NCBI GenBank assembly: GCA_018806915.1
Contig: JAGKQI010000061.1
Coordinates: 1,240,001 to 1,304,000 of the forward strand
DNA from: Phytophthora colocasiae
Taxonomy: Eukaryota; Oomycota; Peronosporomycetes; Peronosporales; Peronosporaceae
Direction: 5' to 3'
Length of the DNA stretch: 64,000 bases
A model generated the notes under the pieces. The model saw only the letters and a list, made by a program, of their open reading frames with translations. It was not told where the DNA came from and ran no database searches. Position 1 is the first letter of the stretch. Every line of letters starts with the position of its first letter. A program made the translations under genes and the position numbers. Below, one piece after another: positions 16,960 to 63,437 of the stretch.

Positions 16960-16963
16960 GGTT

Positions 16964-42389: not shown

Positions 42390-42551
42390 AGTCGCTTACA
42401 AAATGAATAATGGTAGGCAACAGTCGTGGAATTCTCATGATTGATGGAATTGCCTCCGTTTTACACCTTTCCAGAAATCTCGTTCCTTTTTCCTATTCGA
42501 AGGTTGCACGAAAGCAGCAATGGATGGAGCAGCAACGCTAGGCCATCTTAA

Positions 42552-42592
42552 CCCACCGGCGACCGCTGTTATCCCAGCTTTGCTGGGATAAG
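42552..42592 (+). repeat. Giant piggyBac left TIR
   Basis: 41 bp: CCCACCGGCGACCG, CTG, then a palindrome TTATCCCAGC-TTT-GCTGGGATAA. TTAA immediately outside (42548-42551). Confidence 0.95.
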
Positions 42593-42940
42593 TTTTATAT
42601 AGAAATTTGTATGCTATGGGGGTAGGGAAATCAATGTTCCCATCGGTCTGTAGTGTCACCACCTGCTTTCGCTTACTTTTTGCTTATTGGTCAGTAGTAT
42701 CCAATCAGAGTTGAGATAAGCTTCTAATAGTGAGGTCTGTCAATGGACTTGGCGAAAAAACCTTGTCGTAATTCGGAGTAGCCGCCCAAAATCACGAAAA
42801 TAATCTCTACTTTTAGACTATCTATTACAAAAATTTATCCTCGGCATCTATCCCCGCCCACTGGGCGGCGCCCAGTATGCGCTGGAAAAGCGCAAGAAAA
42901 TACGGCTGAGCCCCTGCGCTGTTTGAAGGCCGTGGACGAC
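42593..42940. other. Giant piggyBac left subterminal region
   Basis: About 350 bp, AT-rich, without a supported gene. Contains a short GC-rich dyad (GCCCACTGGGC, about 42857). Expected place for transposase binding sites; none recognised. Confidence 0.5.
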
Positions 42941-44359
42941 GTTCACTGACGCTGGATGGAACAGACGCTCAAGGTCGCTATGACGACGGCAATGAAGAAC
43001 TTGAGACGTCACGGAGCGAAGAAGAAGACGAGGAAAATGATGTGCAGTCCACGGAGGGAGAAGAACACTCGTACCGACGTGGACGACAAGCTATTCCTAT
43101 GGATTCACCAGGTGATGATCTACGTGGAGACCATTTGATGCTGGACGGGGAGGAGGACGGAGATTTGGCCAGACGCATGGCTGGAATTGGTGTGCAGAGA
43201 TTGCGACGTTTAAGAGGGAGAAGAGGCTTCTTCCATTCAGATGCAGATACTCGCATCTTCCGATACAGATCTAGGGGGGGATTCTGCAGATAATTACACT
43301 GAGAAGACGCAAAAGAGAGGACCATGATGTGTTCTGGACGGCGATTGGAGTATTGACGCTGCTGAGCTTCTTACTCATGAGCAGCATTACGATCTACTTG
43401 ACGCAGACGGATTTCTTCGAGTCGCATCAGAACGATCTCTTTGGAACGACGGTGGATAATAGATTTACAGTTGTGGCGGAGGATGACGCACAGATCTTCT
43501 TGAAGAGTGGTAAGACGGACGTAGTGGAGAGTTGTTTTGCGGCATCAATTAATGTTGTGTGTTGTGACGCCCAGGATACTCTAATACCGCCTACTCGGAG
43601 GGAATGATCGCATTTGATGATGGAGAGTTGAAAATCGGACGTCGTGCATTGGATTCCGGAGACCAGCAGACATTTAATGGGGTGACTTTCTTCTCCAATG
43701 GCACTGTGACGTTCACAAACAGGGTGGATTGTAAGTGCACATGACATTTTCTTGTGTGCGTATTGCTTTGCTAACAGTTTGGTGTTACATCAGCTCCCAT
43801 GATTGAGGCGGATTATTTGAGTGCCAGAAAGGGGGTTGTTTTCGATGATGGCACGATGATGACCACAGCTGCGAACAGTTCGGGCGGTGTGAAGGAGCAG
43901 GGCGACCTGAATCTCGTATCAAAAGCAGGAACTGTCATCACGAGCGCTGGTGGAAACTCCTTGCTTTTCGTCGATCCTGCTGGAACGGTGACAGTGGCCA
44001 ACACCATCGCGGACGATCCTACAGCGGCCGGCATTACGCTTGACGGCACGCGCGGACTTATCAGCATTGGAGATGGAATGACGCTAAAGAACGACGGTAA
44101 CGCAACGAGTTTGTCTTCTTCCCAGGACCTGTACCTGGATACGAGCACAGTCTTCGTAGGTTCTGCTGGCGGCGGAAAAGTGCGGGTTTCGGTACCTAGT
44201 GGTGACACTACTGGAGATGATGGTGCACGAGCACTTGAGTCTGCGCAAGAAAGTGAGCGTCGGGTACAATCCTCGACGCTATTTGTCGTGTCAAGCTGGA
44301 GCGACGGTGAACATCTCTACAGTAGTCTCTGCCCAAGAGCGAACAGACAAAAAATATAA
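42941..44359 (+). pseudogene. Cargo 1: single-pass membrane protein with sarcoglycan-like layout
   Basis: Acidic/basic cytosolic N-terminus (SEEEDEENDVQSTEGEEHS; RLRRLRGRRGFF), one membrane segment (FWTAIGVLTLLSFLLMSSIT, near 43330), then a beta-rich ectodomain of short repeats (LKIGRRALDSG, ITLDGTRGLISIGDGMTL, DLYLDTSTVFVGSAGGGKV). This is the layout of sarcoglycan-type type II membrane proteins; assignment is by layout only. A 63-bp GT-AG intron (43731-43793) joins in phase. The frame breaks at a run of seven Gs near 43274 (eight would keep it open) and again near 43570. First in-frame Met is near 43099; the true start may be in an upstream exon. Confidence 0.5.
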
Positions 44360-45091
44360 GAGAGGACGAACGCTTTTACGTCCTGCTCGAGCGAAAAAAG
44401 CCACTACATCAACGTTGACAAGGAAACGTTGGCTCGGAGTGGAGAAACTAATGCTGCACCGGTTTCCTGTGGGGGGTGCAGTAGTAACGAGAAAATTTTG
44501 CTGTCAAGGGGTGGAGAATATGGCAGATCTATCTTAAAGCACACAGCGCTCTTTCATTGAGAGAAGACCCGGATAAGGAGGCTTTATCGAAGGCACGATT
44601 GAAAGCCCTAGTGTTGGATATCTGGCTGGAGTTTCTCAAGGAAAGAGTCAGATAGATGCTCATCAGAGCTACCTCTGTTGCTGGATCTCAAGCAGCAACG
44701 CAACCTGACAGCGAGGTTCTTGCATGCGAGCGCGTCTCTCTTCACAATTTAAGCTTTTGAGTCGAGGTCGTACTTGCTCGAGTTGGAGATCGTAGAGGAA
44801 TGTAGAGCGCAGTCGGAGATAGACCTATAGCGACGGAGCAGCAGATAAAAACATATAAAAAAGCGAAACACAACGACCTGCTTATTTATCCTTTAACTTT
44901 GAGATGACACGAACGTTGAGCATTAATCTACATGTATTTCTACTATCCTAGGTAAGTATATTGCACGAGATCAGTTCACTATACTCGAGTCGGTAAACGC
45001 CAACCATAACACGTGCGTAGTACATCGTACGTCTCCACATATTCTTCCGTGACCTATTGTCTTAAATCTCACGTGACCTCAACTGTCGCAG
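44360..45091. other. No supported gene
   Basis: 44360-44540 keeps an open frame downstream of cargo 1 that may be its shifted C-terminus (RGRTLLRPARAKK). 44541-45091 is AT-rich with no coding signal that I can see. Confidence 0.4.
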
Positions 45092-45289
45092 GGTGCATCA
45101 GGTAGCTGTACTCGTCCATCGGCAACGGAATGGGATGCCAAGGCGTACCCGCCGCAGGTGCTCGTCGACTGCACCAGTTTGCCAATTTACCGAAAAGCGA
45201 TGAAGGCTCCACTTGTGAAATTGCCCTTGCTGAGTGACAGCAACGCCAGCGTTGAAGTTGTTCACCACATCTTTAGTCTTCCAGACTAG
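45092..45289 (+). pseudogene. Possible terminal exon of an unknown gene
   Basis: After an acceptor-like TGTCGCAG, 65 codons read as protein-like sequence (ATEWDAKAYPPQVLVDCTSL, SNASVEVVHHIFSLPD) and end in TAG at 45287-45289. No upstream exon was found. Family not recognised. Confidence 0.25.
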
Positions 45290-45578
45290 AATTGGAAGCC
45301 ACAGAAGAGCTTACAGACGTAGAATCATCCAAGCCATTGGACTCCACTGCGATCTAGTGACAAAAATCTGTATAAGTATAATTTTAAATGATAAAAGACA
45401 ACTTGACTTCAAAACTAGTACAGTAGGATAAACGGTATTTCTGAGAATTGGCCGAGATGTTTGAGAGACTTTGAGAGACCTCCGAGAATTATCTATAAGG
45501 AAAGAACATGACTACGTCTGAAAGAATTGGGGATGCCACTTTCATTTTTTCCTGCATTGGTCCAACTACAACCGAGGT

Positions 45579-46142
45579 ATGGATTGGAGCTGGCGCGTGG
45601 AGGACGTGGCATTGTCCATCGTTCACGACTTTATTGACAACAAAACATGGTCCTATGGGTCGTGTGTTGTCGTGCTACGTGGGTTGCCTGGAAGCGGGAA
45701 GACAAAGTTCGCCGAGATGCTTCGACGTGCGTTTGTAAATGCATTCGCAGAGGACACCGTGAGCAATGCACGGATCGTGCGTATATTCACCCCTCAGCAA
45801 GATGAATGGGGTGCATGGTGGTGTGATAGGAACATGCACGGCGTATTTAGAGCTGAGCTTCAAAGCGCCGAAGTGGTGATCGTTGATAGTTCGCACATTT
45901 CTCAAGTGGAATGGGAGTTCGTGGAGAGAATGGCAAATTCGTGTTGGAGCGATTGTGGACTTGAAGGGAAGACTTACGTGGTGAGTTTTCTTTGCGACGA
46001 TTTCGAGCACGCGAAAAAATTAAATCAACGCGCGGATGACCCGCTACCAGATGAGTTGTTGTGCAACCTTTACCGTGATTTTCAAGCGGCGGAACCTGAG
46101 GTGGCTGAAGTAGCACATTTCTACACTGTTGTTCCTCAATAG
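45579..46142 (+). CDS. Cargo 2: P-loop kinase-like protein
   Basis: 187 residues from ATG 45579. Walker A is LRGLPGSGKTKFAEML (about residues 32-48) and a Walker B-like strand is EVVIVDSSHIS (about 92-102). This pattern matches small AAA_33/N4BP2L1-type P-loop kinases, a group that includes polynucleotide kinase-like proteins; substrate unknown. No introns. It is intact and lies alone between non-coding stretches, transcribed away from the left end. Confidence 0.75.
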   Translation: MDWSWRVEDVALSIVHDFIDNKTWSYGSCVVVLRGLPGSGKTKFAEMLRRAFVNAFAEDTVSNARIVRIFTPQQDEWGAWWCDRNMHGVFRAELQSAEVVIVDSSHISQVEWEFVERMANSCWSDCGLEGKTYVVSFLCDDFEHAKKLNQRADDPLPDELLCNLYRDFQAAEPEVAEVAHFYTVVPQ

Positions 46143-46885
46143 CGTTGGAGACACGCAGTGCAACAATCTCCGGAAGTACGGCAATGTACTGGCTATCAAG
46201 GTTTTTTTTTTACGTTTTATTGTTAGCAATACAGTTGACAACATTAATTTACATCGATGGCAGAACAACATTGACATTAAAAGACGTATTTATATTGAGT
46301 TTAGTAATGACGATGTCAACTCTTCACATAGCGTATTTGCATACAAGACTTTATATTCATGCTCCCTCTAACGCGTAGAGATATAGGCGTGAGCACACCA
46401 CGTCAACTTAATACGTCTATATGCCAGATTTAGTGCATGACGACTTGTGCTTGGACGACTTCTTCGCATGCCTCAACCTTGGTCTGACCAGCCGTCGTGG
46501 ACGCCACTATGTTGTGCCTTTGGACGATGCACCCTCGGCCCTGCAGGTATCGTCGCCATCTCGAATGACACCGTTGTCTTGCTGTTGACAGTTTGAAGCA
46601 CAAAAAGTAGCATAAAATTCTAAAACCTACCTTGCGAAAGTAAACACAGCATAAAATCTGCTTAAAAGGACGCGTTTAGTGACGATGTTGATCCGCCATC
46701 GATTCAAATATTTTTGTTGTCGTGCCGAAAGAAAGTAGATCCTTTCAACGCTCGCCATTGAATGACTGCCCGATCTAAATGTTTTGCCTGTACATCTACG
46801 ATTTATCTTTGGACCTTCCAACACCATGTCGATGATGTTTTACCATTGACCTATCCAATACTACAGTAGTACTAAACTCGAGATA
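46143..46885. other. No supported gene
   Basis: AT-rich, with a T9 run near 46203. Near 46843-46880 and again at 47492-47540 and 52765-52800 there is a shared motif around GTCAATGGTAAA / TTTAGTACT, orientation varying; possibly a regulatory word of the element. Confidence 0.4.
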
Positions 46886-47500
46886 TATGATAAGCACTGA
46901 CGCCGTCACGCGGTGTTCTTCCCTGAGCTTCTCCTTCTCCAGATCGAGCAGGTGGCTCATGGCTTGTCGTAGCTGCTTCTCTTCTTCGTTCTTGGCCTCC
47001 AGCCCAATAGCAATGCGGTGCAAACGCACATCTTGCTCGAACCGACAAAACCGAATCTTGTCGACGTTTGCCACATGCTCCCCAGACTTGTACGCACGTT
47101 CCAAGTGCTGTCGCTGAGAGGTCTCTCGCTGGCGTAGTTCCAGTAAGTGATTCTTCAGTGAGAGTTTATACCGGAGATACTGAGCTTGAGCCTTCGATGT
47201 TGCCTCGTGCTGCCTCGTTTTGGGAAGTAGAGGATAGAGAGACTTGGATGTATCACGTCGGGTGGTACGAGAAAAGGACGCTCGCTCAGGAGCGTGAGGA
47301 TCCTCTCGTGCAACCTTCTTTTTTACTGGGTGTCAATTCATTGTCTTCTTCAGCCTCCTGGTGGTTGGCGCTCTTTCGAGGAGTAACAGGCTTCTGGGCG
47401 GGAATGTTCTCGCTTGGTCGAGAATTCTCGCGATCTCCGACATCTTCAGCCGCAGCTTCGTCTTCTTTGTGCTCGGGAACAACTTGTCATTGACCTCTCA
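46886..47500 (-). pseudogene. Cargo 3: coiled-coil protein fragment
   Basis: Two minus-strand segments. 47500-47295 reads EDEAAAEDVGDRENSRPSEN, PAQKPVTPRKSANHQEAEED, NELTPSKKE. 47240-46890 reads KAQAQYLRYKLSLKNHLLEL, RQRETSQRQHLERAYKSGEH and IGLEAKNEEEKQLRQAMSHL, a strong coiled coil. A frame change near 47280 separates them. No ATG or clear introns. Family not recognised. Confidence 0.4.
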
Positions 47501-47628
47501 AATACTACTACTGTAGTACTAAACTCAAGGTAAGCACTACACCTCGAGCTGATCAGCTGACAGGGAATCGAAGCCGTCAGCAGCCACAAAAACTTTCCCT
47601 AGCGCAACTACACAGCAGAACGCCGGGC

Positions 47629-48160
47629 AGCGTAGCAGGTTAAAGCAGCATTGTGATGGTGTAGCGTAAGGGTTGCGTAGCAGAACGTCGAGCAGCGTAC
47701 CAGGTAGAATAGCCTAGTAGGTAGGGCAGCGTAGCAGGTTATAGCAGCATTGTGACCAGTAGGGCTCCAGCAACGTAACGGGTAGCGTAGCAGATCGTCG
47801 ACCAGCGTACCAGGTAGAACAGCCTAGTAGGTAGGGCAGCGTAGCAGGTTATAGCAGCATTGCGACCAGGTTCGGAGTAGCGTAGCAGGTTATAGCAGCA
47901 TTGTGACCAGTAGGGCTCCAGCAACGTAACGGGTAGCGTAGCAGATCGTCGACCAGCGTACCAGGTAGAACAGCCTAGTAGGTAGGGCAGCGTAGCAGGT
48001 TATAGAAGCATTGCGACCAGGTTTGAGTAGCGTAGCAGGTTATAGCAGCATTGTGACCAGTAGGGCTCAAGCAGCGTAACGGGTAGCGTAGCAGCCAGTA
48101 GAACGTCGAGTAGCGTAGCAGCCAGCAAAGGTCGAGCAGCGTAGTCAGCAATTTCGTGTA
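47629..48160 (+). repeat. Minisatellite, left arm
   Basis: About three to four tandem units of roughly 110-150 bp built from CGTAGCAGGTTATAGCAGCA and GTACCAGGTAGAACAGCC words; the reverse complement of the array at 51720-52660. Open frames across it are by-products of the repeat. Confidence 0.9.
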
Positions 48161-48904
48161 GTGCACGTCGAGCAGGGCGTCAGGACATTGGGTAATGGGG
48201 GACTTGAGGGGGGCTTGGTGAAATTGAAAATGAGGCTCCGCTTTGCGATTCTTACCGCGAGGATCGCGCACATGAGGTTGGCTAGAGCTTCAACTTGCTG
48301 GCCAATTAGCACTCGTCATTTTTACGCTAGCGCCTCTTATTGGCGGAATCGTCAGAGCGAACCCGCCGGGGAAAAGCTTGGCTTGGAAAAGCGCGCGGAA
48401 ACACGTATAGTGGGCCTTGCGACCACGTAGGAATCATGTTGGCTTCAAGTTCAACCTCAACATATGATTACTATAATACTCACACTATACTATTGATATT
48501 ACTATACGTGGCGAAGAGTGCGTTTGTACTTGCGATAGTATGAACCCTGACAATAAAATGTCAACTTCGAAGAAACGTCGACTTGAGATTTCAATTATCA
48601 GCGATGGTCTGCATTTCACTCACTTTCTGTAGTCCGCCATGGGGACGATGATTAAACGCAGTTGCAGTAGTTAGTGGTAGTTCACGGGTGGCACGACCGT
48701 GCAGAAGCCGCCCGGAAAAATTGACCGTTTTGAAGTTGTTGCTAGAACTTCACAGCCGGCTACGAAAGCGCATTCAGGGACGTGGGCACCCACGTTGAAG
48801 CTCCCAGTCCGGCTCGGCGTGGCTTTAGTGTCATAGACCTCTATCGATGATACCGCAGCCAAGACTGCTGCCTCATGTTGTGAGGATGTTTAACTTTATC
48901 GATG

Positions 48905-49369
48905 TTCATACACAGTCGCCTTGCACCTATGCTACTACGTTTGTATCAATTCTAACTTCGCGGAAATCCATATGCGTTGTCTTCGAAGGTTTGCGTTCGG
49001 GCTCAAAACCCAAACACGTAAGCACTTGATTAACCGCTTCGCCGTCAATGTTCCAATCCGATGAGTGTCGAAACAAGACATGATAATGGCTTCAAAAGGA
49101 AGCCTGCATATTTGGGATACTTGGCGCCACCGCTTGTTTCGCCAAAGTAAATGTCGTTGTGCAGCCTCCACGTTGCGTGGTCGCAGTGTGTATTTTTCCA
49201 GTGTATCAACAAGATCTCGTGATCTTCTCTCCGGCCTCTGGCAATATCGCTGTTGCCACAGAGAATACCACAGAGAATAGAGGCGCAATTCAACTACGAC
49301 ATCGACTAAGACAAAGACAATTCGCAATGTGACACAACGACAGCGTTATGACCATGGCAACACCTAGAC
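48905..49369. other. Palindrome spacer, left part
   Basis: No intact gene. On the minus strand 49085-48945 reads like protein (NIDGEAVNQVLTCLGFEPER, KPSKTTHMDFREVRIDTN), and 49205-49095 in another frame (HNDIYFGETSGGAKYPKYAG). Possibly decayed exons; not recognised. Confidence 0.3.
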
Positions 49370-49880
49370 GTGATGAGGTATATTGAGTTACTTCCAAAGA
49401 GTCCTACAGACCTAGACTGGTCTAAGGACCGGTACAAGTCCAACCTTGGATGGCCGAGCCGTCTAATTTCCGACCGGGGAGATCCAGGACAAACTCTACA
49501 ACGAAATAGCGACAGCGACAGCGACTACGACTACGACTACGACGATACGGACCTTCGTGCATTCGCCGAAGGCTTAAGATGGCCGGAGGATCTGCTGCGC
49601 TGTTACCAAAGCCTCTCGGACGTCTCAGTGTATCAGATGATGACCCGGCGGCCTTCGGCGTCGCTTGCGTACGCTGTCTGTGTTCGCTGACCTTCAGTGT
49701 CAGTACTCGCAATTTGAACGTATGCTCTGTGTCATTATCATTCGTTTGGGTATCGAAAGCCCTAGCACTGCGAGAGGTTGGCTCTGGAACCATTTTCGAC
49801 GTGGTTCCATGAAACCCAACACTGGTATAAATACAGTCCCGGACCTAGTGGAGCTAGGCGGTTTTTTTTTTAGGACGTAA
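49370..49880 (+). pseudogene. Unknown gene fragment, weakly HARBI1-like
   Basis: From ATG 49370: Asp/Ser/Tyr-rich stretch (DSDSDYDYDYDDTD, from a triplet repeat at 49505-49550), then LRAFAEGLRWPEDLLRCYQS. The frame stops at 49690, but another frame continues with FADLQCQYSQFERMLCVIII and ARGWLWNHFRRG. The order of an LRxP element followed by a helix-turn-helix-like segment faintly recalls the N-terminus of Harbinger-type transposases; this is a guess. No DDE domain follows. Confidence 0.25.
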
Positions 49881-49954
49881 GCTCGGAGAGCTAGTACTCG
49901 GTGGCTGACGCAGGACTTGCGGGTAACATGCTGCTACCAAGCCAGCTTCCACTT

Positions 49955-50485
49955 CCACTGGTAAGGATACGTCTAGTGACAAGATGTCGTCCTCGACTCT
50001 TAAGATCAAGAGTAGTTCGGTAACCCCAAATACTCAGTTGTGACAGTCTACTCTTATATTTCTCCAAGAACACAAAGCCTTACAAAAACATTTGACGCAA
50101 CTACAACCTCCAGCAGGCTCGCAATCTGCCTCGCTGAGTGACCGGCTTCATTCTACTCATCATATCCCTGAATCTACCACTGGTTCGTGAGCCGTTGCTG
50201 AACAAAATGCCACTGGTAAGGATACGTCTAGTGACAAGATGTCGTCCTCGACGGAGATATACGCTGCGGTCACAGTCTTCTCTTAAGATCAAGAGTAGTT
50301 CGGTAACCCCAAATACTCAGTTGTGACAGTCTAGTCTTATATTTCGCCAAGAACACAAAGCCTTACAAAAACATTTGACGCAACTACAACCTCCAGCAGG
50401 CTCGCAATCTGCCGCGCTGAGTGACCGGCTTCATTCTACTCATCATATCCCTGAATCTACCACTGGTTCGCGAGCCGTTGCTGAA
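49955..50485 (+). repeat. Two tandem direct repeats, period 255 bp
   Basis: Units start at CCACTGGTAAGGATACG (49955 and 50210) and are nearly identical apart from about 27 extra bases near 50252 in the second unit. No gene. 50486-50960 also lacks a gene; it holds an 11-bp hairpin at 50718-50744. Confidence 0.85.
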
Positions 50486-51719
50486 AAAAATGAAACGACA
50501 TTTCCAACACTAGCGCGTTAGATAGATGAATGCGCAACCAAAATCATATTGGGACATTGGGCATCGAAAACCCAACGCTGTTAGCCTAAAACTGCATGTA
50601 CGTGGCGAACCCTCGTTATCATAGTTGTTTGGGCCAGCGTGCAGTTTAGTCATTGACCCACAGCACAGCATCAAAACCTTTCACCATCTTTAGCATACAC
50701 ATCCACTTACAAATTTTGTATTCTCGTGAACGTCACGAGAATACACAAACCTTGATTCAACGTGGAGAACGCGACTAAAACGCAAGGATGATTACGTCCC
50801 CGCTAAAAGTTAATCAACTTCTCTCTTCTTCTCTGTGGTAGATTCCGGACTATGATTAATATGGTTTAAAAGCAGAAGATCTTCAGCGGCATGTTGTCTT
50901 TCTGTACCAGCACTACTAATGAAATTCATACGACGCACTCTGTAGAATGGACAGGGCGTCCATCGATAAAGTTAAACATCCTCACAACATGAGGCAGCAG
51001 TCTTGGCTGCGGTATCATCGATAGAGGTCTATGACACTAAAGCCACGCCGAGCCGGACTGGGAGCTTCAACGTGGGTGTCCACGTCCCTGAATGCGCTTT
51101 CGTAGCCGGCTGTGAAGTTCTAGCAACAACTTCAAAACGGTCAATTTTTCCGGGCGGCTTCTGCACGGTCGTGCCACCCGTGAACTACCACTAACTACTG
51201 CAACTGCGTTTAATCATCGTCCCCATGGCGGACTACAGAAAGTGAGTGAAATGCAGACCATCGCTGATAATTGAAATCTCAAGTCGACGTTTCTTCGCAG
51301 TTGACATTTTATTGTCAGGGTTCATACTATCGCAAGTACAAACGCACTCTTCGCCACGTATAGTAATATCAATAGTATAGTGTGAGTATTATAGTAATCA
51401 TATGTTGAGGTTGAACTTGAAGCCAACATGATTCCTACGTGGTCGCAAGGCCCACTATACGTGTTTCCGCGCGCTTTTCCAAGCCAAGCTTTTCCCCGGC
51501 GGGTTCGCTCTGACGATTCCGCCAATAAGAGGCGCTAGCGTAAAATGACGAGTGCTAATTGGCCAGCAAGTTGAAGCTCTAGCCAACCTCATGTGCGCGA
51601 TCCTCGCGGTAAGAATCGCAAAGCGGAGCCTCATTTTCAATTTCACCAAGCCCCCCTCAAGTCCCCCATTACCCAATGTCCTGACGCCCTGCTCGACGTG
51701 CACTACACGAAATTGCTGA

Positions 51720-52660
51720 CTACGCTGCTCGACCTTTGCTGGCTGCTACGCTACTCGACGTTCTACTGGCTGCTACGCTACCCGTTACGCTGCTTGAGCC
51801 CTACTGGTCACAATGCTGCTATAACCTGCTACGCTACTCAAACCTGGTCGCAATGCTGCTATAACCTGCTACGCTGCCCTACCTACTAGGCTGTTCTACC
51901 TGGTACGCTGGTCGACGATCTGCTACGCTACCCGTTACGTTGCTGGAGCCCTACTGGTCACAATGCTGCTATAACCTGCTACGCTACTCGAACCTGGTCG
52001 CAATGCTGCTATAACCTGCTACGCTGCCCTACCTACTAGGCTGTTCTACCTGGTACGCTGGTCGACGATCTGCTACGCTACCCGTTACGTTGCTGGAGCC
52101 CTACTGGTCACAATGCTGCTATAACCTGCTACGCTGCCCTACCTACTAGGCTGTTCTACCTGGTACGCTGGTCGACGATCTGCTACGCTACCCGTTACGT
52201 TGCTGGAGCCCTACTGGTCACAATGCTGCTATAACCTGCTACGCTACTCGAACCTGGTCGCAATGCTGCTATAACCTGCTACGCTGCCCTACCTACTAGG
52301 CTGTTCTACCTGGTACGCTGGTCGACGATCTGCTACGCTACCCGTTACGTTGCTGGAGCCCTACTGGTCACAATGCTGCTATAACCTGCTACGCTGCCCT
52401 ACCTACTAGGCTGTTCTACCTGGTACGCTGGTCGACGATCTGCTACGCTACCCGTTACGTTGCTGGAGCCCTACTGGTCACAATGCTGCTATAACCTGCT
52501 ACGCTACTCGAACCTGGTCGCAATGCTGCTATAACCTGCTACGCTGCCCTACCTACTAGGCTGTTCTACCTGGTACGCTGGTCGACGATCTGCTACGCTA
52601 CCCGTTACGCCGCTTGAGCCCTACTGGTCTCAACGCTGATATTACCTGCTATGCTGCTCG
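51720..52660 (-). repeat. Minisatellite, right arm, with 260-bp higher-order period
   Basis: The marker CTGTTCTACC starts at 51891, 52041, 52151, 52301, 52411 and 52561, i.e. spacings 150, 110, 150, 110, 150. The long unit differs from the short by one extra 40-bp block ending in CAATGCTGCTATAAC. So the true period is 260 bp. Confidence 0.95.
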
Positions 52661-52985
52661 ACGTTAGCAGTGGTAACTTTTCCTTGTCAGCGACTGGTAA
52701 CTGTTGTGTTTACCTTGAGTTTAGTATTTTACAGGTTAATGATAAACTTTCTTGAGTACTGAGTATTGGCCAGGTCAATGGTAAACCATCGTTGACATTT
52801 GTAGTTTAAACCATCGTTGACATTTGTAGTTGGTAGAGGCGTTAGCACAGACAGTACTGACACAGGCTGCGTCTGACTTGTGCCTGACGGTGAGCCCACG
52901 GTCAGTATCTTTCGAAAACAAAGTTAGTGGCACTTTCGAGCAGCTGCCAAAATCTTTAGCATGGGACGCCTTTCATTCTTCGTTT
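52661..52985. other. No supported gene
   Basis: Contains a 25-bp direct repeat (TAAACCATCGTTGACATTTG type) at about 52782-52830. Confidence 0.5.
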
Positions 52986-53004
52986 TGCTGTTGAGGAGCC
53001 ATGC

Positions 53005-54370: not shown

Positions 54371-55589
54371 ATGCCGCGCAAGCGCAAGGAGAGAGAAAGA
54401 GATCACCAGTCGTCTCGCACGAGCCGGCGGAGAGCTACTCGGCCCGATGAAATATCTCGTACGCAGACACAACTCTTGCGTCGTTGGCAGCTCTAATCGA
54501 ATGCTTGTTCGTAGATGAAGAGTACGAAGTGGAACGTATTATCGATATGAAAATCGTGTCGGGAAAGCCAAAGTATCATGTAAAATGGAAGGGTTACAAT
54601 GACACTACATGGGAGCCGGAATCCAATCTTACGTGCCCCAGGCTTCTGCAACAATTTAACGAAGAGCAGCTAAAACGTGCCCGTGCTTCCAAGAAGAGAG
54701 CTGCGAGCCCGAAAGCGACAGCAAGCTCCGAGAGCTCCGTGAAACGGAAAGCGTCAAAAGGTAGCTAATGATATTGTCTTCGAGTGCATTATTCTCTGAC
54801 TGAACTGTTGGTCACCGGGGATACTGTACAGGTACTTCTCAGGAGAAAGAGTACGAAGTGGAAGCAATCCTTCGAGAGAGATTTCGTTTTGGATTACCTC
54901 ATTACCTAGTCAAATGGAAAGGGTATACGGAGTGCAGTTGGATCGCTGGATCAAACATGAACTGTCCCGAAGTCCTGGCGGTATTTCGACGTCGTCAACA
55001 GAAAGCTCATCCAGCGGCAAGTATACAGGTTTCTGTTGCCAATGTCACAGAAAACCACAGTACAACCAATTCTACAACTGTCCCGGTGGCCACCCCAACT
55101 GATATAAACCAAGACGCACGGACATTAGATCCCTCTCCAAACAGAATCGACAGATCTCAACGGATTGTCAGCAATGCAGACGAATTACGGGGAGTTCAAG
55201 AAAACTCGAACCCCAATTATGAATTTGATTTTCCTGATTATCGGGAGGAAAACACCAACGACGAGGAGACCAAGGTAGACGAAGAAGCGAGGAGTGAAAC
55301 TAATTCGAGCAACCTTTTTCGGAAGAAAAGACCAACGGTCAGCCACAGTAGGCCGAAATCGCTGTTGAAGGCGCCACGGACCCGTCCATTTCGTATCGAT
55401 GTAGCAAATGAAGGCCTTGACGACGATCATGCGTTTTTAGCCTCTGATTATTGCGCTAGTGAGAGTGATGACGGTTCTGACGAAGAAACCACAGAAAATA
55501 TCATCGTCAACGAGGAAGATGACGAAGATGAATTTTCTGTTGAGACTGCTGAGGAGATTCAGCTGTCGCAGGACCTCAAGATTATATAA
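54371..55589 (+). pseudogene. Double chromodomain protein, N-terminal part of or partner to the transposase
   Basis: ATG 54371 opens a basic, nuclear-type start (MPRKRKERERDHQSSRTS). After a frame change or unseen intron near 54460 comes chromodomain 1 ([35 protein letters not shown]; 54517-54660). A 71-bp intron (54761-54831) splits a Gly codon, then chromodomain 2 (EYEVEAILRERFRFG, HYLVKWKGYTECSWIAGSNM; 54852-54990), where the WEPE motif is degenerate. A long acidic tail ends at 55589. Chromodomains read histone H3 methyl-lysine marks. The aromatic cage positions (Y, W) look kept in both. Only a small shift separates this from the transposase frame, so one fused protein is likely. Confidence 0.8.
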
Positions 55590-55592
55590 CAG

Positions 55593-58069
55593 ATGAAATG
55601 CTGCGGTCTATGTCTATAAACGGTTGGGAGGAGCTGAATGTCGGCGATGGTGTGGACGATACCAATACGGATGGCATGTGTGATGTTATGAACGATCCTC
55701 CCCATTTACAACAATCAGCAATTGATGCAGCTCGAACGATGAAGCCAACGGATTTATTTTTTTATTTTATGCCGAAACGCCTCTGGAGAGATATCGCGCA
55801 TGAAACCAATTTGTACGAGCGCCAAACACGCGCTCAACGGTTACAAGCCGCGTCGCTGGTCATAAATGCCAAGACGAATGATCAAGCTTTGCGAAGCAAG
55901 TTGTACCGAGAGAAAGAACGAGCCCTGGATTCGTTCAAGGAGATTTCCGCAGCGGAAATAACGCATTTCTTGGCGTTGATCATTTCGAGAGCTGTTTGCC
56001 CTATTAAAGCCCGTATGGAAGATCATTGGAAAACCCAGGCGCGTGGGGCAATTCCCGCCGGGACATGGTCACCATTCATGCCTCGACTGCGTTTTAAGGA
56101 GATTAACAGGTACGAACGTGCGCTCAGAACTGGATTATGAATTGCCGGTATAAATGATGAGACAACGTTGACATTTTACCTGGTACTGTACTAATAGAGA
56201 CGTGTTGGTAGGTTCATCCACTTCACAGACAACGAGGACCCACGAGCAAAATCCGATCGGGCATGGAAAATTAGAAGTGTAATTGATACTCTCCAAGATA
56301 CGTTTAAGGGTGCGATGGAGCTAGGGCGTTGGGTTGCGTTCGATGAAATGGTTATCCCGTCAAGGAGTTCGCGGAATACAATTCGTGTTTTTCTGAAGAA
56401 TAAGCCGCACAAGTACGGGACAAAGCTGTTCGCAGTTTGCTGTGGCGAAACCCACTACTGCTCCAGGTACAGAATGTTACTGTTTAGGTGTATGTCAAGC
56501 AGATGTCATTTACTTAGATCTTTTGTGCGTCTTTATCACAGATTCGAAGTCTATTGTGGCAAGAAGCAAGATAGTCAATTTGTTGACACGAGAAGTGGGC
56601 CAATGGCTGTCGTCCGTAACTTGAAGGCCCTGTGGGAACAGCGTCGAGTAGATCGCTCGAAGAAAAGAATCGTTGTTACGGACTGAGAATACTCATCAGT
56701 ATCGCTTAGTTTTCGCCTGATGGACATGGGGTATTACAATATTGGAACAGTGTCCACGAGTCGGCTTGGTTTTGTGGAGAATTTCAAGACAAAAAAAAAG
56801 AGCCAATCACGCAATATGCCTCGAGGGTCCTACAAGCTTGCAAGAAACACCACAAACGGAGTATTGTACGCATCAAGGTGGGTAGACTCAAAAATTTGTT
56901 ATTTTCTGGCCACTGGAGTCTCGGCGAAAAGGTCGTCTGTACAACAAAAGCAAAGGGACGGTACGTACGCTACTATTCCGTGTCCGGAGTTTGTTGTGAA
57001 TTACAACAAGTACATGGGTGGCGTTGATAATCACGACCAATTACGCCTACAACGGTGAGTTTATTGTAGAGCAGTGCTTATTTCATTTTTACTGACATGA
57101 GGTACTGTATGTGGTTGGTTTAGTTACTCTGTTCAAATGGTCATGCGCGCCAAAAAGTACTACAAGAATCTTTTTTACGGGCTTCTTGGCATTGCGATGA
57201 TCAACGCATTCATTGTACACCGTCTATACGCAAAGTCCATCGAAGAGAAACCGCTTTCACACTCGAACTTCCTGATCCAACTCCACGAGGAGCTCCTAGG
57301 TCTCCAAGACCAAGATTTCTTGGAAACTGAACACATTACTGAAGAAGTTGTTGCAGTGGATGACTCAAGGGACCGGTCGGCTTCGATTGCTACTGCCTAC
57401 GCTATTGCTAGCTCGAGTCATCGAGTGTTGGTGTCAACAGATAAAACTGCGGGTAGGAAATTCAAGTTTCGCGTCTGCAAAGTTTGTTCCATCATGTGCC
57501 GTACAACTTCAGATGGAAGGCGTCGATTGGCAGGAACAACGCGCCATTACTGTCAGCAGTGTTCCTCCGATCGCGGGAGACTGTTTTTATGTTCAAAAGC
57601 ACGGCATGTGACTGATGGAAATTCGGTGTCTTGCTTTAATATTTGGCATTCGAACTGGAAGAATGGAAGGAATATTCCGCAACTGGAGAAGAGAGGGGGT
57701 ATTTGAATTCGCCGTTCGACAGAGGAGTTACCAAACGATTCAATTGCTGCCACGGTTGAGCCACCCGAGGTAAGCTCGCGACGGAGGAATTTGAGCTTTC
57801 AGGAGCTTCTCTTGGGTGAGACTCCAGTTGTTGGAAGTCCAGCCCATTTTCAAAGTACAGAGGCACAGCAAATTCAAGTTTCATCAAGTCACGATGATCA
57901 GCTCGGAGCCGATAGGGACGGCCTGGTTGGTAGGAGTCACGATGCCCCAGAAGGAGCTGACGGGGGTCCTGACAATTACGATCAAGAATTTTACGACAAT
58001 GATGGGGCGCAAGCTCCAGAAGGCGTGGGGGCTGACAACATGGACAACCTAGCTAGTGAAAACAACTAG
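55593..58069 (+). pseudogene. piggyBac DDE transposase (four introns or five exons, two in-frame TGA)
   Basis: DDE_Tnp_1_7-type transposase that would cut at TTAA. N-terminal domain includes EISAAEITHFLALIISRAVC. Exons join in phase across introns 56110-56211, 56467-56541 and 57055-57123. Catalytic Asps: WVAFDEMVIPS (56342), VVTD before TGA (56681) and YMGGVDNHDQLR (57026). Then LFYGLLGIAMINAFIVHRLY and a Cys/His finger (CKVCSIMCRTTSDG, HYCQQCSSDRGRLFLCSK). TGA at 56684 sits directly after the second Asp, and TGA at 57704-57706 precedes a Gln/Asp-rich tail that stays in frame to 58069. Both stops may be TGG changed to TGA. Otherwise complete. Confidence 0.9.
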
Positions 58070-58159: not shown

Positions 58160-58545
58160 CCTCAAGATGAGCGCCCTGACCCAGTCGCCACTTCGGAGAA
58201 GAAGAGCGGCGCCGTTTCGTTCTTCATGGACCTGGCTGCCGGCGGTATCTCCAAGACCGTCGTGGCCTCCATCGAGCGTGTCAAGCTGCTTCTGCAGTGC
58301 TTCGTCGCAGATTAACCGAACAAGGGCATCGTGGACTGCTTCGTGCGTGTGTCCAAGGAGCAGGGCACCCAGGCCCTGAACTTTGCCTTAAAGGACAAGT
58401 TCATAAGCTCTTCATTACGGTGTCACCAAGGACCAGTTCTGGCGTTTCTTCAAGGGCAACCTGGCTTCGGGCGGTGCCCGCTCGCCGCTCTTCGTGTACC
58501 CGCTTGACTTTGCCCGTACCCGTCTCGTAGCTCTTGAGGTTTAGT
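58160..58545 (+). pseudogene. Mitochondrial ADP/ATP carrier, truncated processed-looking copy
   Basis: Recognisable carrier pieces in order: FFMDLAAGGISKTVVASIER, VKLLLQ, GIVDCFVRVSKEQGTQALNF (with the stretch normally lying between EQGT and TQALNF missing), [16 protein letters not shown] and [13 protein letters not shown], across different frames with stops. GC-richer and housekeeping-like in codon use, unlike its surroundings. No introns. A dead copy of a host gene captured by the element. Confidence 0.85.
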
Positions 58546-58655
58546 CAATGGTGGCGCAATATTGAGTTGTGAGATAAATAATTCGTACTTAGTGAGTAAA
58601 TGATGTCAAATTCTTTGGTATGTTTTTTGTTGCGTGTGATTTCCATTGAAAGACG

Positions 58656-60164
58656 ATGGTGAAGACGCGTGCGGGGAAAAGGAAAACCAAGGTCGCTCTG
58701 TTTAAGGGCAACACGCGGGTGAAGGATGGGCAAACCGAGAAAACTGCGCATACGAGGCAGTTACTGTCGGTGGCAGCACAAACGAATTCGTTAGTCGTCC
58801 CGGCCAAAACGCAGGAGAATCAGTCGGCCAAGAGCAATTCGTCAACCAAGGGCAAGCCTTCATCTAAGAAACGAAAGGGGAATATTACTGAGTCCTCGGA
58901 TGGATCTAGCAAGCGACCAAAACCGACAGGCCAAGATACTGAAGTTTCTGTACAGGATGTTGATGCTGCTGAACCGGAGGAGGCAGAAGGCCAAGAGGTT
59001 CCCATCAAATTCCTGAAGGAAGCTTGCGATGAAATGAGGAGAGCTTGCAACGAGGAGTACCAAGGAGATAAGCGGCAATGCGAGCGGCGCACGAAAGCAC
59101 AGCCGTACACTTTGGCAAACTATCAGAAGCGCTTGTGGGTAGAACGGTATCTCGCCGCACGAAATAGATGCGAAAAGGTGGATTACAATGATTTAGCGAC
59201 CAAAATTCAGTTCAAGGCCTTCAAGAGCGAACCAGCAGAGCTCAAGAAGCACCACCAGTCTCTGCTCAAGGAAGTATATGCAGGGTATCTCAAGGTGTTG
59301 GAAAATAAGAAAAACAAGGCTAATGCAGATCCCAGCGCAGGCCTAAGAGAACTCGTGGCGTCAAGCAATGCCTCGTTGGTCACGAAGATACAGGAGCTTT
59401 TGAGCGAGGGCCACGAAGAAACTAAGAAAGAGCTGAGACGTGCAATTCGGGAGGAAAGAGAGATAAGCCAAGCAGCGAAGCCACTTGCTACTGGAAAGAT
59501 AGGGAAGGAGTCGAGTTTAGACCAAGTTCAAGCAGTAGCGGCGACTTTACCGACTCTCGTGTGTGACACTGAAGAGGAGAAGCAGACTTTACGGGCGGAG
59601 TTTGATTTGATCTACCGCAAGATCTCCGTCTCGCTGTCTGCTGCATCCGAGAGGAAGTTGAAGGACTTGGAGACAAGCCACGTATCCAAGTTGGAGGATC
59701 TCAAGGCGAGACACTTGGAAGTTGAGGAAAAAATTCAAGAACTAGTGCGGGAACTGGATGAGGAGAAGTTGAACTCCACTACGCTTCGAGAAGAACTAGA
59801 GGCTCAGCGCAAGACTTCCACTGGTCGACGAGGTGACAAAGGTAAGCAGAAAAAATTGGAGGAGGCACTCAGAAACAAAACAGCCGAATTAGCAGGAGAG
59901 AAGGCGATATCAAGCGGCTACCAGAAGAAAGTAAAATATCTGGAGACAGCACTGAATGCGGCGAGAGCGAAGATTGAAGAGCAAGACGAAGAGCTGGAAG
60001 CGGCCGTACGGCAAATCAACACGAAAGGCAAGGAAGTGAAATCTGTCAGCAGTACGATAAGAAAGAAGGACAAGAAAGGCAGAGGAAGCATGGGTGAAGT
60101 CAAAAGAACTAATGCTAAAGGGGGGGTAACGAAGAAGTTGCAGGGAACAACTTGTGAAATTTAA
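58656..60164 (+). CDS. Cargo 5: 502-residue nuclear coiled-coil protein
   Basis: Intact single exon from ATG 58656. Residues 1-110 are basic and low-complexity with nuclear-localisation-like clusters (RAGKRKTK, SSKKRKG). Residues 120-240 form a mixed domain (EACDEMRRACNEEYQGDKRQ, AQPYTLANYQKRLWVERYLA). From about 310 to 460 is a long coiled coil (LKARHLEVEEKIQELVRELD, KKVKYLETALNAARAKIEEQ). The C-terminus is again basic. Family not recognised. It directly follows the transposase and is the best-preserved cargo gene. Confidence 0.75.
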   Translation: MVKTRAGKRKTKVALFKGNTRVKDGQTEKTAHTRQLLSVAAQTNSLVVPAKTQENQSAKSNSSTKGKPSSKKRKGNITESSDGSSKRPKPTGQDTEVSVQDVDAAEPEEAEGQEVPIKFLKEACDEMRRACNEEYQGDKRQCERRTKAQPYTLANYQKRLWVERYLAARNRCEKVDYNDLATKIQFKAFKSEPAELKKHHQSLLKEVYAGYLKVLENKKNKANADPSAGLRELVASSNASLVTKIQELLSEGHEETKKELRRAIREEREISQAAKPLATGKIGKESSLDQVQAVAATLPTLVCDTEEEKQTLRAEFDLIYRKISVSLSAASERKLKDLETSHVSKLEDLKARHLEVEEKIQELVRELDEEKLNSTTLREELEAQRKTSTGRRGDKGKQKKLEEALRNKTAELAGEKAISSGYQKKVKYLETALNAARAKIEEQDEELEAAVRQINTKGKEVKSVSSTIRKKDKKGRGSMGEVKRTNAKGGVTKKLQGTTCEI

Positions 60165-60540
60165 AGGAAGAGAATAACGAACAGTCAAACGACTTCAACA
60201 ACCGTGTTTCATTATGTGTTGAAGTAAACTGTGGTGCAATGTTGGTATGTGTCGGGTGTTCTGGAATTGAGCTCGGGAAGTTTAAGTCCTTGCTAGCTAG
60301 CCGCTCTAAGCACTCTTGCACCAGCACCTATTTGTCCTACTGACCCGTTATCGACAGCACGATGCAGCCCTCATTGCCATTGTCGCGAAGTTGCCTCTCC
60401 ATCTTGTCATGCTTCCACTCGAAGTCCTTGTGGCTTTAAGTTTCTTCGACTGCGACTGGTCTCGCTCGTCTAATGTACAAGTGTAGCTCTCGGAGTGAAT
60501 TCCCGAATGTCATTTGAACATGAAGTGTTTTCAGAAGCTC
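60165..60540. other. No supported gene
   Basis: Intergenic between the coiled-coil gene (+) and the DOT1-like gene (-), which converge here. Confidence 0.5.
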
Positions 60541-60543
60541 CCA

Positions 60544-61418
60544 TCAAATACAAAAAGGGCTAGAGCATGAATGTCGATGGCGTGGACATACCAGCGTCGT
60601 TAATCCCACCAGGCGAAGATGAGGTAATACCACACACATGTTGATAACCGCCAACACGGCATCTTCTTCAAACACGGTGTCATGACAGTACAAAACAGTA
60701 GCGGAGTTGATTAGCGAGCCAGGTCGACTTGACGATAATTTTTTTCCAGCGCACACAACAGCTTTGTTGCTTTCCTTAAACCCACGGATGTCTCCGGCGA
60801 CAACACAGATCTTTTGCAAATGCGGAAGGTCCACAACTGCTGACGCGATTAGTTTCATCCCTTTTGCTACCAAGTTGTCTTGAATCTCAATGCCCACCAC
60901 GCAAGACGCCCGAGTTTGTAACGCAATCTGGACGAGAACGTTCCCGATACCAGATCCAGCGTCGAGAAACACATCGCCCTCTTGAAAGGCTGCTTCAGTT
61001 ATAAAACTGGATACTGCTACCATCGTGATCTCCCCAGCATTTAGCTGACGCTTATTGGCACGTACATCGCGCCTAGTCAACACACGAAAAGCCTTTCTGT
61101 GGCGTTGTACGTGTCTTCGGGAGACAACGGTACCATCAATTGCTCTGTAATTCCGGGCGTACTATCCGCTTGTTGGACTCGTTGGCTCTTGCTATTTTGT
61201 TGGAGTGACTTCCGAAAGAATCGCGGCGGAAATTGCAACACGTCAGTTCCTAGTCATCGCTTGAGCGTCTTGATACGTTGCTGAAGCTTCTCTGGGCTCC
61301 ATTTCTGTGGTCTCATCTTTTCTGCCACTAACGACCACTTGACGCGGCGTCCAGATTTCACGTACGTCGCTGCTAGCTGGACGAGCTGGCGATCTTCTTC
61401 ATCAGAAAAATCTGCCAT
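60544..61418 (-). pseudogene. Cargo 6: SANT/Myb plus DOT1-like histone methyltransferase
   Basis: ATG 61418 opens a 54-residue SANT/Myb-like domain (MADFSDEEDRQLVQLAATYV, KWSLVAEKMRPQKWSPEKLQ) ending in TGA at 61256. The same frame continues (PPRFFRKSLQQNSKSQRVQQ) to about 61080, then another frame carries the DOT1 fold: LTRRDVRANKRQLNAGEITM, VFLDAGSGIGNVLVQIALQT (SAM-binding motif), VVGIEIQDNLVAKGMKL and VLYCHDTVFEEDAVLAVINM. DOT1 enzymes methylate H3K79. The Asn pair usually found in the substrate-binding loop reads HD here, and the C-terminus at 60544 looks shifted. So fold clear, activity doubtful. Confidence 0.75.
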
Positions 61419-61700
61419 TCTCTTTCACAAGTTCACAAGGCCCCGTTTGACTAGAATTTGTATACCATACGATCTGTAGTCATTACTGGCACTTAAGCCA
61501 AGGTTTCGCCACAGTTGACCCATTCCATTTCTACATGTATGCTCACTGATGAACCAATATGTATTGAGCCGTTTATCCGTCACTTTGAGCCAGGGAAACT
61601 AACCTCGCTGGCGACTAACGCCAGACCTCCAGTAGTCCTGCCACCGGTTGCCCACTTTCTCCTACACGAAACCGCTTTTATAGCTATCGACTTTGTGTCG
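61419..61700. other. No supported gene
   Basis: Short intergenic stretch between the DOT1-like gene start and the end of the next minus-strand gene. Confidence 0.4.
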
Positions 61701-61704
61701 CGGC

Positions 61705-62148
61705 TCAGCAGGGGATCTCGGATTTGGCTTCCGTCTGCAGATACTCAAGAAGTACTCGATCAACGGTTTCTACCTCCATAAAATCCTTGATCTGCTGGCA
61801 AAACAAGGCAGCATTTGTCTGCAGGTTGCTCATTGCAACTGGTGTCGATACAAATATCTTGGCTCGTACACGCGGCCCTGAACGGTACATCCTTCGGATT
61901 GCAGTCCAGCCCGAAGTAGACGTGTGCATCTCGTTCCACTTGCTCCAAGTAAACGTTCCGTAGTCAATTGACACAGCAATTGTCGGGAAAGTGATAATTC
62001 CAAACAGCAGAACCGAAAAGATCCAGGGATATCGAGCCATTGGACGCCACCTCCGAGTGTATTGACTACGAGCCGAGTCATTCTGTTCGTCTAACTGCCG
62101 TCGACGGCTGCAGATGCCGAAGAACGGCTGTCTTGTACGTGATGCCAT
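61705..62148 (-). CDS. Cargo 7: small single-pass membrane protein
   Basis: 147 residues from ATG 62148. Basic N-terminus, one membrane segment (PWIFSVLLFGIITFPTIAVS, residues about 45-64), then an external domain with SIDYGTFTWSKWNEMHTS and RAKIFVSTPVAMSNLQTNAA. Family not recognised. Its 3' end (KSEIPC) may not be the original terminus. Confidence 0.5.
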   Translation of the reverse strand: MASRTRQPFFGICSRRRQLDEQNDSARSQYTRRWRPMARYPWIFSVLLFGIITFPTIAVSIDYGTFTWSKWNEMHTSTSGWTAIRRMYRSGPRVRAKIFVSTPVAMSNLQTNAALFCQQIKDFMEVETVDRVLLEYLQTEAKSEIPC

Positions 62149-62211
62149 CGCAAGATTGGGTATCTGCGTCGTTTCAAAGCTTGTAGATCCCTTTGCCGGG
62201 GGCTCTTCACT

Positions 62212-63085
62212 CTACGCTACACTTGGATTGAGGAGTCGGTCGAACTTTGCCTCTAGCTGCTGCTCAGGAGACAGAATACCCTGCTTCTCAAGCTCTTTTT
62301 TGCGTTCCTTCTCCTTGGCATTGAGTGCTGCAATACGCCGTTTGTTACGAGTGCTGAGGTCGTCACGCACTACCCGCTTCATGCGCTTGAAAATCTCTGG
62401 CACTGAGTGGGAATGGAGAAAGCGCAGTAGATCACTCTTAGGAGCGTAGTGTTCTCCCAGTACGTTGCGTCCTACATGACAATCAACCATCAATTCAATC
62501 ATCAATTCAATTCACACAGTACACTCACACGTAGACGTACCCCATAATTGAGCGATACCATGAGTATCGCGACGGAATTCCAGTTGATCTTCTTCCAGCG
62601 CTGTGATCTGCAGATGTCGAGGCTGGAAAACACCAGTAGTTTCAATAATTTGCTGGACTCGGAGGCTTTCAAGCTGGTCTTCCAGTCTCCTTTTAGTGAC
62701 AGCGCTTGATGTCGACGATAGAAGCCGCAGTAGATCTGCCTGGACACGAACTGAACTCGTTTGGAGCTTTAACTCTCCATCTTCGTGCGCTTTCTGTCTG
62801 CGTTTCAGCGTGAGCTTCTTCCGTGTAGAGTTCGTATGCATACTGAAATCGTCTGACGCTTGTAGAAGGCGCTCGAAAGGGCTGACATCTCGTTCGTACT
62901 GGTATATCTCCCATACATCCTCTGATACTTCGTCAGCCTTCTCCACCGCTACAACCATACACAGCAACGTGTACGGAGCTTCTCGCCCGCCTCCATCACT
63001 TGGAATCGCAGCATCTTCCAGATACAAATCCAGGGAGGGAGTGTCCTTGCCAGTCACCAGCCAACGGATGCCTTCTGCTTACTGC
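62212..63085 (-). CDS. Cargo 8: two-exon unknown protein
   Basis: Exon 1 is open from an acceptor-like position near 63082 through GIRWLVTGKDTPSLDLYLED, PYTLLCMVVAVEKADEVSED and LEDQLESLRVQQIIETTGVF to about 62543 and ends in a GTACGT donor; intron about 62542-62474; exon 2 reads RNVLGEHYAPKSDLLRFLHS, IFKRMKRVVRDDLSTRNKRR and ends at 62212. The junction restores a Gly codon in phase. No ATG is found in the first exon, so an upstream exon is likely missing or just inside the right end. Family not recognised. Confidence 0.55.
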
Positions 63086-63395
63086 TCTTGCCCTTGATAG
63101 CTGGTAGTAGAGAACTGTATTATCTAGTTAAGACAACACGCAAAACGCTTCCGGAAGCATATTTCACAAATTTACCTTGCAATAAAAGGTCGTCAAGCCA
63201 CTAAAATGTGCCCTGCCAGTTGCACTCCGCTCTAGTAAATCAACGCTTGGCGACCAATGGTGGCAAGGAAGACCTCCCGCCATGCTCATCACCGTTCCAG
63301 GGGAGAAATCCGCAAACGACACTATTGGCTAAAACGACGTGAATATCACTTTAAAGACGAAAGGGCTTCTAACAAGGTTTTTCTCTGAGGTTTTT
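63086..63395. other. Giant piggyBac right subterminal region
   Basis: No supported gene; includes a short stretch near the right TIR where transposase binding would be expected. Confidence 0.4.
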
Positions 63396-63433
63396 CTTAT
63401 CCCAGCTTTGCTGGGATAACGGTCGCCGGTGGG
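63396..63433 (-). repeat. Giant piggyBac right TIR
   Basis: 38 bp, reverse complement of the left TIR except for the missing CTG triplet. TTAA follows at 63434-63437. Confidence 0.95.
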
Positions 63434-63437
63434 TTAA

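Follow-up and report, generated by a model that had tools for sequence, protein, structure and literature searches.

Canonical piggyBac transposons hold one gene in a few kb, and terminal inverted repeats (TIRs) that start with CCC are a trait of the superfamily. The Starships of fungi carry a tyrosine-recombinase captain at one end. Giant size is described for Teratorn of fish, a piggyBac-herpesvirus fusion of 41-182 kb with about 90 genes, among them a herpesvirus polymerase and capsid (PMC6431247, in the sections available). Here we describe a 20.9-kb unit in a 64,000-nucleotide stretch of the Phytophthora colocasiae genome (C34:1240001-1304000, referred to throughout as the window), which is very probably a giant piggyBac DNA transposon from a diverse set with a two-gene core, consisting of a DDE transposase and a Myb/SANT-DOT1-like methyltransferase.

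With canonical piggyBac elements (piggyBac and piggyBat transposases, PDB 6x67 and 9c0f) the unit has a DDE core with three Asp, CCC TIRs and TTAA in common: TTAA stands at both ends, the TIR starts with CCCACC, and the transposase matches DDE_Tnp_1_7 (PF13843) above cut-off. It differs from them in its length of about 20 kb, at least five gene units, a chromodomain, a DOT1-like partner and a subterminal hairpin. Like Starships, as far as the available sources describe them, it would be a large mobile element with cargo in a filamentous eukaryote, but it has a DDE transposase, TIRs, TTAA and one gene set common to the copies read, and no tyrosine-recombinase captain was found in its scanned protein pieces. 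The likeness to Teratorn lies in being a giant piggyBac with long inverted repeats and, between subtypes of Teratorn, an inversion in the middle (PMC6431247, in part), whereas herpesvirus replication and virion genes were not recognised among the element's scanned protein pieces.

Chromatin enzymes on transposons are described in the sections available of PMC12730594, namely a SET methyltransferase in Phytophthora HarbingerS/MuDR, a TET/JBP dioxygenase in fungal transposons and the Vandal anti-silencing protein. There, too, an epigenetic enzyme or regulator on a DNA transposon is thought to act against silencing, as we propose here, but the enzyme folds and the transposase superfamilies are others, and the word piggyBac is absent from the main text of that source. 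In P. megakarya, expanded hypothetical gene families lie in duplicated inverted blocks associated with DNA/PiggyBac (PMC7341134, in part). These blocks resemble the present unit in their piggyBac-like transposable elements, in the inverted repeats at their ends and in the repeats between; the section concerned does not describe giant transposons bounded by TIRs and TTAA, and DOT1 is absent from the paper's text. They may be the closest trace of this kind found in print. No description of a piggyBac element with a DOT1 gene was recognised in the literature covered, which was without most subscription journals and Repbase Reports and for which several listings were partial; some such elements may be included in a Repbase report of 2014, on DNA transposons of oomycetes, to which PMC12730594 refers.

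Ends, copies and insertion site of the element

The element extends over 42548-63437 (20.9 kb, both TTAA counted in). Direct reading of the ends bore out the original prediction of a unit of this size with matching TIRs abutting TTAA on both sides, the outer 14-bp repeats being CCCACCGGCGACCG at 42552-42565 and CGGTCGCCGGTGGG at 63420-63433. The TIRs of 41 and 38 bp given in that prediction each consist of the 14-bp outer repeat and a 23-nt near-palindrome, TTATCCCAGC(TTT/AAA)GCTGGGATAA, at 42569-42591 on the left and 63397-63419 on the right, with 3 extra bases between the two on the left and none on the right. At both ends the near-palindrome folds, as DNA, into a hairpin with a 10-bp stem and a 3-nt loop (left, -10.6 kcal/mol, z -3.95; right, z -4.16), with 0 of 200 shuffles as good. 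When ends were compared across the genome, the loop read TTT in 7, AAA in 7 and differently in 1 of the right ends, and TTT in 14 and AAA in 1 of the left ends; this inversion of the loop between copies suggests a palindrome that flips, for example by cruciform resolution.

The genome (92.5 Mb, 105 contigs) was searched for the end motif including TTAA, TTAACCCACCGGCGACCG, at up to 2 mismatches, which gave 61 sites (55 exact, 5 with one and 1 with two mismatches), while the reversed control gave 0 sites in the same genome. The TTAA is not merely a product of the pattern, since a right-end search without TTAA in the pattern gave 28 exact ends, all 28 of which adjoin an exact TTAA. Pairing could be tested because left and right ends diverge immediately inward of the 14-mer: among 23 inward pairs closer than 40 kb, 12 were left-right and 11 right-left, with no left-left or right-right pair, and 15 of the 61 ends were unpaired. 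Pair lengths were 19,273-21,003 bp in 18 of the 23 and 23.3-36.8 kb in the other 5. Rather than occurring in this genome only as separate small elements, the TIRs thus delimit 18 pairs of about 20 kb, with an interior common to the copies read.

For whole-copy comparison, the window copy and 6 of the other 22 pairs were used (7 copies in total). All six align with the window copy over the full length, ending at TTAA or a few bases beyond, and share its interior and gene set, at an identity of mostly 96-99% per aligned block that is lower in the central repeats. Exceptions to the end-to-end match are repeat-number differences and the central segment, which in the window copy has the orientation opposite to all six others. 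About 135 bp present at window position 45247 in the six other copies are lacking in the window copy. Over 10,016 aligned columns, 117 indels were counted together with 244 substitutions relative to the majority, or about 0.35-0.4% per copy, and 170 of 193 substitution variants in open reading frames (ORFs), summed over ORFs, were private to one copy, a pattern that fits a recent star-like burst.

The 1-kb outer flanks, compared for 30 of the 61 ends, gave a single flank-flank match (212 bp, 93%), which indicates that the flanks of the copies are unrelated; the seven copies read sit at different places. The left flank of the window copy is part of a repeat that has numerous copies on contig C34; one of them lies inside the window and provides a paralogous empty site (Table 1). 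This site, with its one TTAA, shows that the 20.9 kb was inserted as one unit with duplication of the TTAA. The flank repeat includes window positions 26105-26702 and 41948-42547 and is spread over about 280 kb (C34, 1.04-1.32 Mb), with all 43 matches listed on contig C34. Because of the end census, the left-right pairing, the matching copies and the empty site, we conclude that the 20.9 kb moved as a single unit, apparently recently, the unit insertion being evident for the window site. The earlier view of a giant multi-gene piggyBac element is supported.

The two core genes and their recurrence in the genome

The piggyBac DDE transposase expected inside the unit is present as judged by Pfam, though in the window copy its reading frame is interrupted. 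Its pieces are found at 54804-55589, 55553-56140, 56198-56686, 56687-57058 and 57101-58069, separated by frame breaks and perhaps, as judged from gap lengths only, by introns. The N-terminal chromodomain lies at about 54852-54995, and in the C31 copy the first piece, with the chromodomain and the start of the DDE core, is one open frame of 438 aa. The three catalytic Asp can be aligned to piggyBat through the compact and C3 families described below. A Cys/His-rich C-terminal part, without family match, was seen by eye only (57101-58069, and likewise in the L057/L063 frames).

The second core gene is open over 329 aa in other copies and broken in the window copy. Pfam DOT1 (PF08123) was matched at 44-65 bits (cut-off 23) in three families, and the best PDB matches are H3K79 methyltransferases, at 1.3e-6 for the C100 protein of the compact family, with NN aligned, and at 9.1e-5 for the protein of the 20.9-kb family. 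The position of these asparagines belongs to a DOT1 motif known as motif IV. It reads NN in the compact C100 family, NS in C3, and HD in the 20.9-kb family as well as in relatives from P. sojae, P. fragariae and P. megakarya. Residues 1-60 of the P. megakarya relative match a Myb/SANT-like fold. Eight protein relatives were found for the gene, all from Phytophthora, at 39-61% identity.

For the genome search for DOT1-like loci, 122 of 295 candidates were scored, the query being distant for the compact family; rows below 50% identity, minus two second fragments and excluding those of the 20.9-kb family itself, gave 66 divergent DOT1-like loci at 28-40% identity, 59 of them without internal stop. 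For piggyBac transposases, 116 of 1055 first-look candidates were scored in the family search, with second pieces of one gene merged by hand, and 53 of 879 with a second transposase query, both searches merging into 125 piggyBac loci; as control, 150 of 645 MULE candidates were scored. A piggyBac locus lies within 5 kb of 40 of the 66 divergent DOT1-like loci and within 15 kb of 42. Random placement in 5000 draws, counted within 6 kb centre to centre where the observed counts are within 5 kb edge to edge, gave a mean of 1.05 and a maximum of 6, against the 40 observed. In the MULE control, 0 of the 66 loci have one of the 150 MULE loci within 5 kb, and 3 have one within 15 kb. The spacing recurs from locus to locus, with 3,281-3,282 bp occurring three times and 1,004 bp twice. 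The DOT1-like gene is part of a set found repeatedly beside piggyBac transposases, and is hence hardly random cargo.

The same pair was found in compact elements of 5.6 and 5.9 kb (C83 and C100), which are 98.5-99.3% alike in two main pieces that are together bounded by TTAA, and which have TTAACCCTTTCGCG ends with a 10-bp TIR starting with CCCTTT. Inside lie a transposase frame, of 958 and 856 aa, and, convergent with it, a DOT1 frame, of 320 aa (Myb part out of frame) and 416 aa (Myb part in frame). The only further ORFs of at least 150 aa are one per element that runs antisense to the transposase and, in C83, one of 156 aa. In C19, the TTAACCCTTTCGCG TIR is followed by Myb and DOT1 parts in two frames. 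The TTAACCCTTTCGCG motif has 78 sites in the genome (control, 0), which form 16 inward pairs closer than 40 kb. Five of these measure 349-352 bp and eight measure 5.3-5.9 kb, and the remaining three are 19.0, 25.6 and 27.0 kb long (C82, C99, C11). The shortest pairs, on C36, C50, C58, C82 and C94, resemble non-autonomous miniature members of the compact DOT1-piggyBac family. Onto the pairs, 14 DOT1 and 24 transposase places picked by hand were overlaid; by eye, no other of the 66 loci lies inside one of the pairs listed. Both genes are contained in the 19.0- and 27.0-kb pairs, and none listed in the 25.6-kb pair. A recurrence of giant size is hinted at by the 19.0- and 27.0-kb pairs, though nested insertions or unrelated ends may account for the large pairs.

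A third arrangement is given by two units of 10.8 kb that are 99.5% alike (C3:152679-163482 and C30:1044060-1054864; L057-L061). In C3, an open transposase frame of 1090 aa and a divergent Myb-DOT1 frame of 294 aa lie within 1.6-kb inverted repeats; the left boundary of C3/C30 reads TTAACCC, and a matching TIR was not found at the right boundary. The C3 unit sits within an array of tandem repeats of about 830 bp. As the searches indicate, then, the two-gene pair occurs in the compact elements with other TIRs and beside many, not most, other piggyBac transposases.

Further features of the element and the window

The features of the element are given in Table 1. The original prediction counted at least eight genes or gene remnants besides the transposase; the multi-gene character holds, whereas five gene units are supported in all and the remaining ORFs are less sure. 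By eye, gene 1 has an acidic N-terminal part, one hydrophobic, membrane-like stretch and a Gly/Thr/Val-rich C-terminal part (ORF 43775-44359). Its first part has 41 matches in the genome, none of them below 71% identity, which places these matches in its own element family. Relatives of gene 2 elsewhere in the genome are at 33-36% identity, and its kinase matches in PHROG and NCBIfam are weak. For gene 4, the searches gave no family match and no protein match; genome matches beyond its own element family are few and mostly short. The long internal inverted repeat, 585 and 448 nt of which match at 100%, lies between genes 2 and 3.

Table 1. Features of the 20.9-kb element and its paralogous empty site, in window positions
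Feature	Position	Strand	Remarks
Paralogous empty site	26312..27195	+	95.4% over 904-column alignment to the joined flanks; one TTAA at 26703-26706
TTAA target-site duplication, left	42548..42551	.	Sequence read; single TTAA at paralogous empty site
Left terminal inverted repeat	42552..42591	+	14-bp CCCACCGGCGACCG, CTG, 23-nt near-palindrome (10-bp stem, TTT loop)
Gene 1, broken in window copy	42910..44359	+	Without family match
Gene 2, 206-aa P-loop kinase-like	45522..46142	+	Pfam AAA_33 and KTI12 above cut-off
178-aa ORF	46796..47332	-	Uncertain whether coding; equal length in 5 of 7 copies; antisense 160-aa ORF also kept
Left arm, long internal inverted repeat	47618..48904	.	Tandem repeats of 17, 27, 110 and 150 bp
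Central segment between arms	48905..50960	.	Inverted in window copy relative to six others
Right arm, long internal inverted repeat	50961..52662	.	Tandem repeats
Gene 3, piggyBac transposase, chromodomain and DDE core	54804..58069	+	Pfam DDE_Tnp_1_7 and Chromo
Gene 4, 504-aa Lys/Glu-rich protein	58650..60164	+	Open in window copy; coiled-coil-like by eye
Gene 5, Myb/SANT and DOT1-like methyltransferase	60439..61424	-	Convergent with transposase
168-aa ORF, status uncertain	61705..62211	-	–
188-aa ORF	62512..63078	-	Equal length in 4 of 7 copies
Right terminal inverted repeat	63397..63433	-	14-bp CCCACCGGCGACCG, 23-nt near-palindrome immediately after
TTAA target-site duplication, right	63434..63437	.	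Sequence read; single TTAA at paralogous empty site

Elsewhere in the window, an open frame of 1397 aa at 16904-21097 resembles a Copia-type polyprotein, and ORFs at 34906-37670 resemble reverse transcriptase/RNase H beside a tyrosine recombinase and appear DIRS-like (both by reading). At 256-540 (C34:1240256-1240540), a MULE transposase was matched above cut-off.

Alternative explanations

Several observations weigh against a giant piggyBac transposon with a two-gene core. A detected piggyBac within 15 kb is lacking for 24 of the 66 divergent DOT1-like loci, and a listed DOT1-like locus for 5 of the 8 compact TTAACCCTTTCGCG pairs. Among the matches listed, a DOT1-like locus lies within 5 kb of 36 of the 116 loci from the piggyBac family search and of 27 of the 53 transposases from the second query, so that many piggyBacs were found without a listed DOT1-like locus. 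The uniform random null ignores the clustering of repeats, an objection that the MULE control answers in part. In motif IV, HD replaces the asparagines NN in the 20.9-kb family, and its DOT1-like activity may therefore differ. The transposase frame is broken in all seven copies read, and a third-codon-position excess was not found in these copies, which consequently give no sign of selection. The analysis rests on sequence, with activity or expression of the element predicted at most.

The broken frames, the neutral look of the post-burst substitutions and the plentiful transposases of other families would suit a passive giant, a defective composite moved in trans by an intact copy or by another family, with its genes, DOT1 included, as hitchhikers. 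We consider this fairly unlikely: the whole first transposase piece of 437-438 aa is open at five places (first piece only), and random hitchhiking is at odds with a DOT1 partnership that recurs at about 28-40% identity. As 48 of 58 one-base deletions sit in homopolymer runs of at least 3, many of the frame breaks may moreover be long-read errors in near-identical repeats, or slippage. Very improbable is a descent from a large DNA virus that acquired a piggyBac and lost its virion genes, for which size, long inverted repeats and the inverted central segment, recalling Teratorn as far as described in the sections available, and the piggyBac sequences included in giant-virus insertions of P. parasitica, in a source likewise seen in part, could be adduced. 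In the protein pieces scanned (Pfam, PHROGs and NCBIfam), no viral hallmark, be it polymerase, capsid or another, was recognised. Pfam is the relevant viral test of the three, since PHROGs is confined to bacterial and archaeal viruses; weak PHROG matches were seen for the kinase-like protein. Viral contigs contained no relative of three queries, the C100 DOT1, the C3 transposase and the C31 kinase-like protein, two of them from related families, in a search that reaches close relatives only. On the pieces scanned, the earlier distinction from Teratorn, for want of a viral polymerase or capsid, is therefore upheld.

That segmental duplication or an assembly artefact produced repeated 20-kb blocks mimicking a transposon is scarcely credible. 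Assembly of long, near-identical repeats is prone to error, the left flank occurs repeatedly along C34, and the window copy is inverted between its long inverted repeats relative to the others; but TTAA-bounded TIR ends are common to copies in unrelated flanks, a paralogous site is empty, and a left end is joined with a right end in all 23 pairs. A further doubt concerns the role of the DOT1-like protein, which could, though we think it rather unlikely, be no chromatin writer but a methyltransferase acting on other targets, or a protein with altered catalysis that serves the transposase as DNA-binding partner. The HD of the 20.9-kb family and of its relatives in the three other Phytophthora species points that way, as do weak NCBIfam matches, far below cut-off, to RNA and other methyltransferases; the Pfam DOT1 matches above cut-off in three families and the H3K79 methyltransferases as best PDB matches point to the chromatin role.

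Implications

With the two-gene transposon as the preferred reading, the transposase would cut and paste the unit at TTAA like other piggyBacs, as family knowledge and the empty site suggest. The Myb domain may bring the methyltransferase to the element or to target DNA, where the enzyme may alter chromatin and so allow escape from silencing, or insertion where the chromodomain reads the mark, by analogy with the transposons described in PMC12730594 (in part). The left part of the element, with gene 1, the kinase-like gene and the long inverted repeats, and gene 4 between the core genes would have been gained by a compact ancestor. More tentatively, and as somewhat less likely than not, we suggest an oomycete piggyBac lineage in which a Myb/SANT-DOT1 second core gene writes a mark that the transposase, in some families via a chromodomain, reads, and in which more than one family has grown to giants of about 20-27 kb with further genes and long invertible repeats, a non-viral counterpart of Starships.

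The efficacy of DNA transposition is stated to fall above 6 kb of cargo, artificial constructs of piggyBac and others reaching 100-200 kb (PMC6431247, in the sections available). Here, about 20 kb appear to have been carried to some twenty sites by a DDE transposon in which no viral genes are recognisable, and such a natural, high-copy case would be informative with respect to the stated cargo limit. The recurrent pair of transposase and DOT1-like gene makes it testable whether DNA transposons write chromatin marks for escape from silencing or for target choice, and might account for the DOT1-like genes of other Phytophthora as well as for the inverted gene blocks associated with piggyBac in P. 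megakarya.

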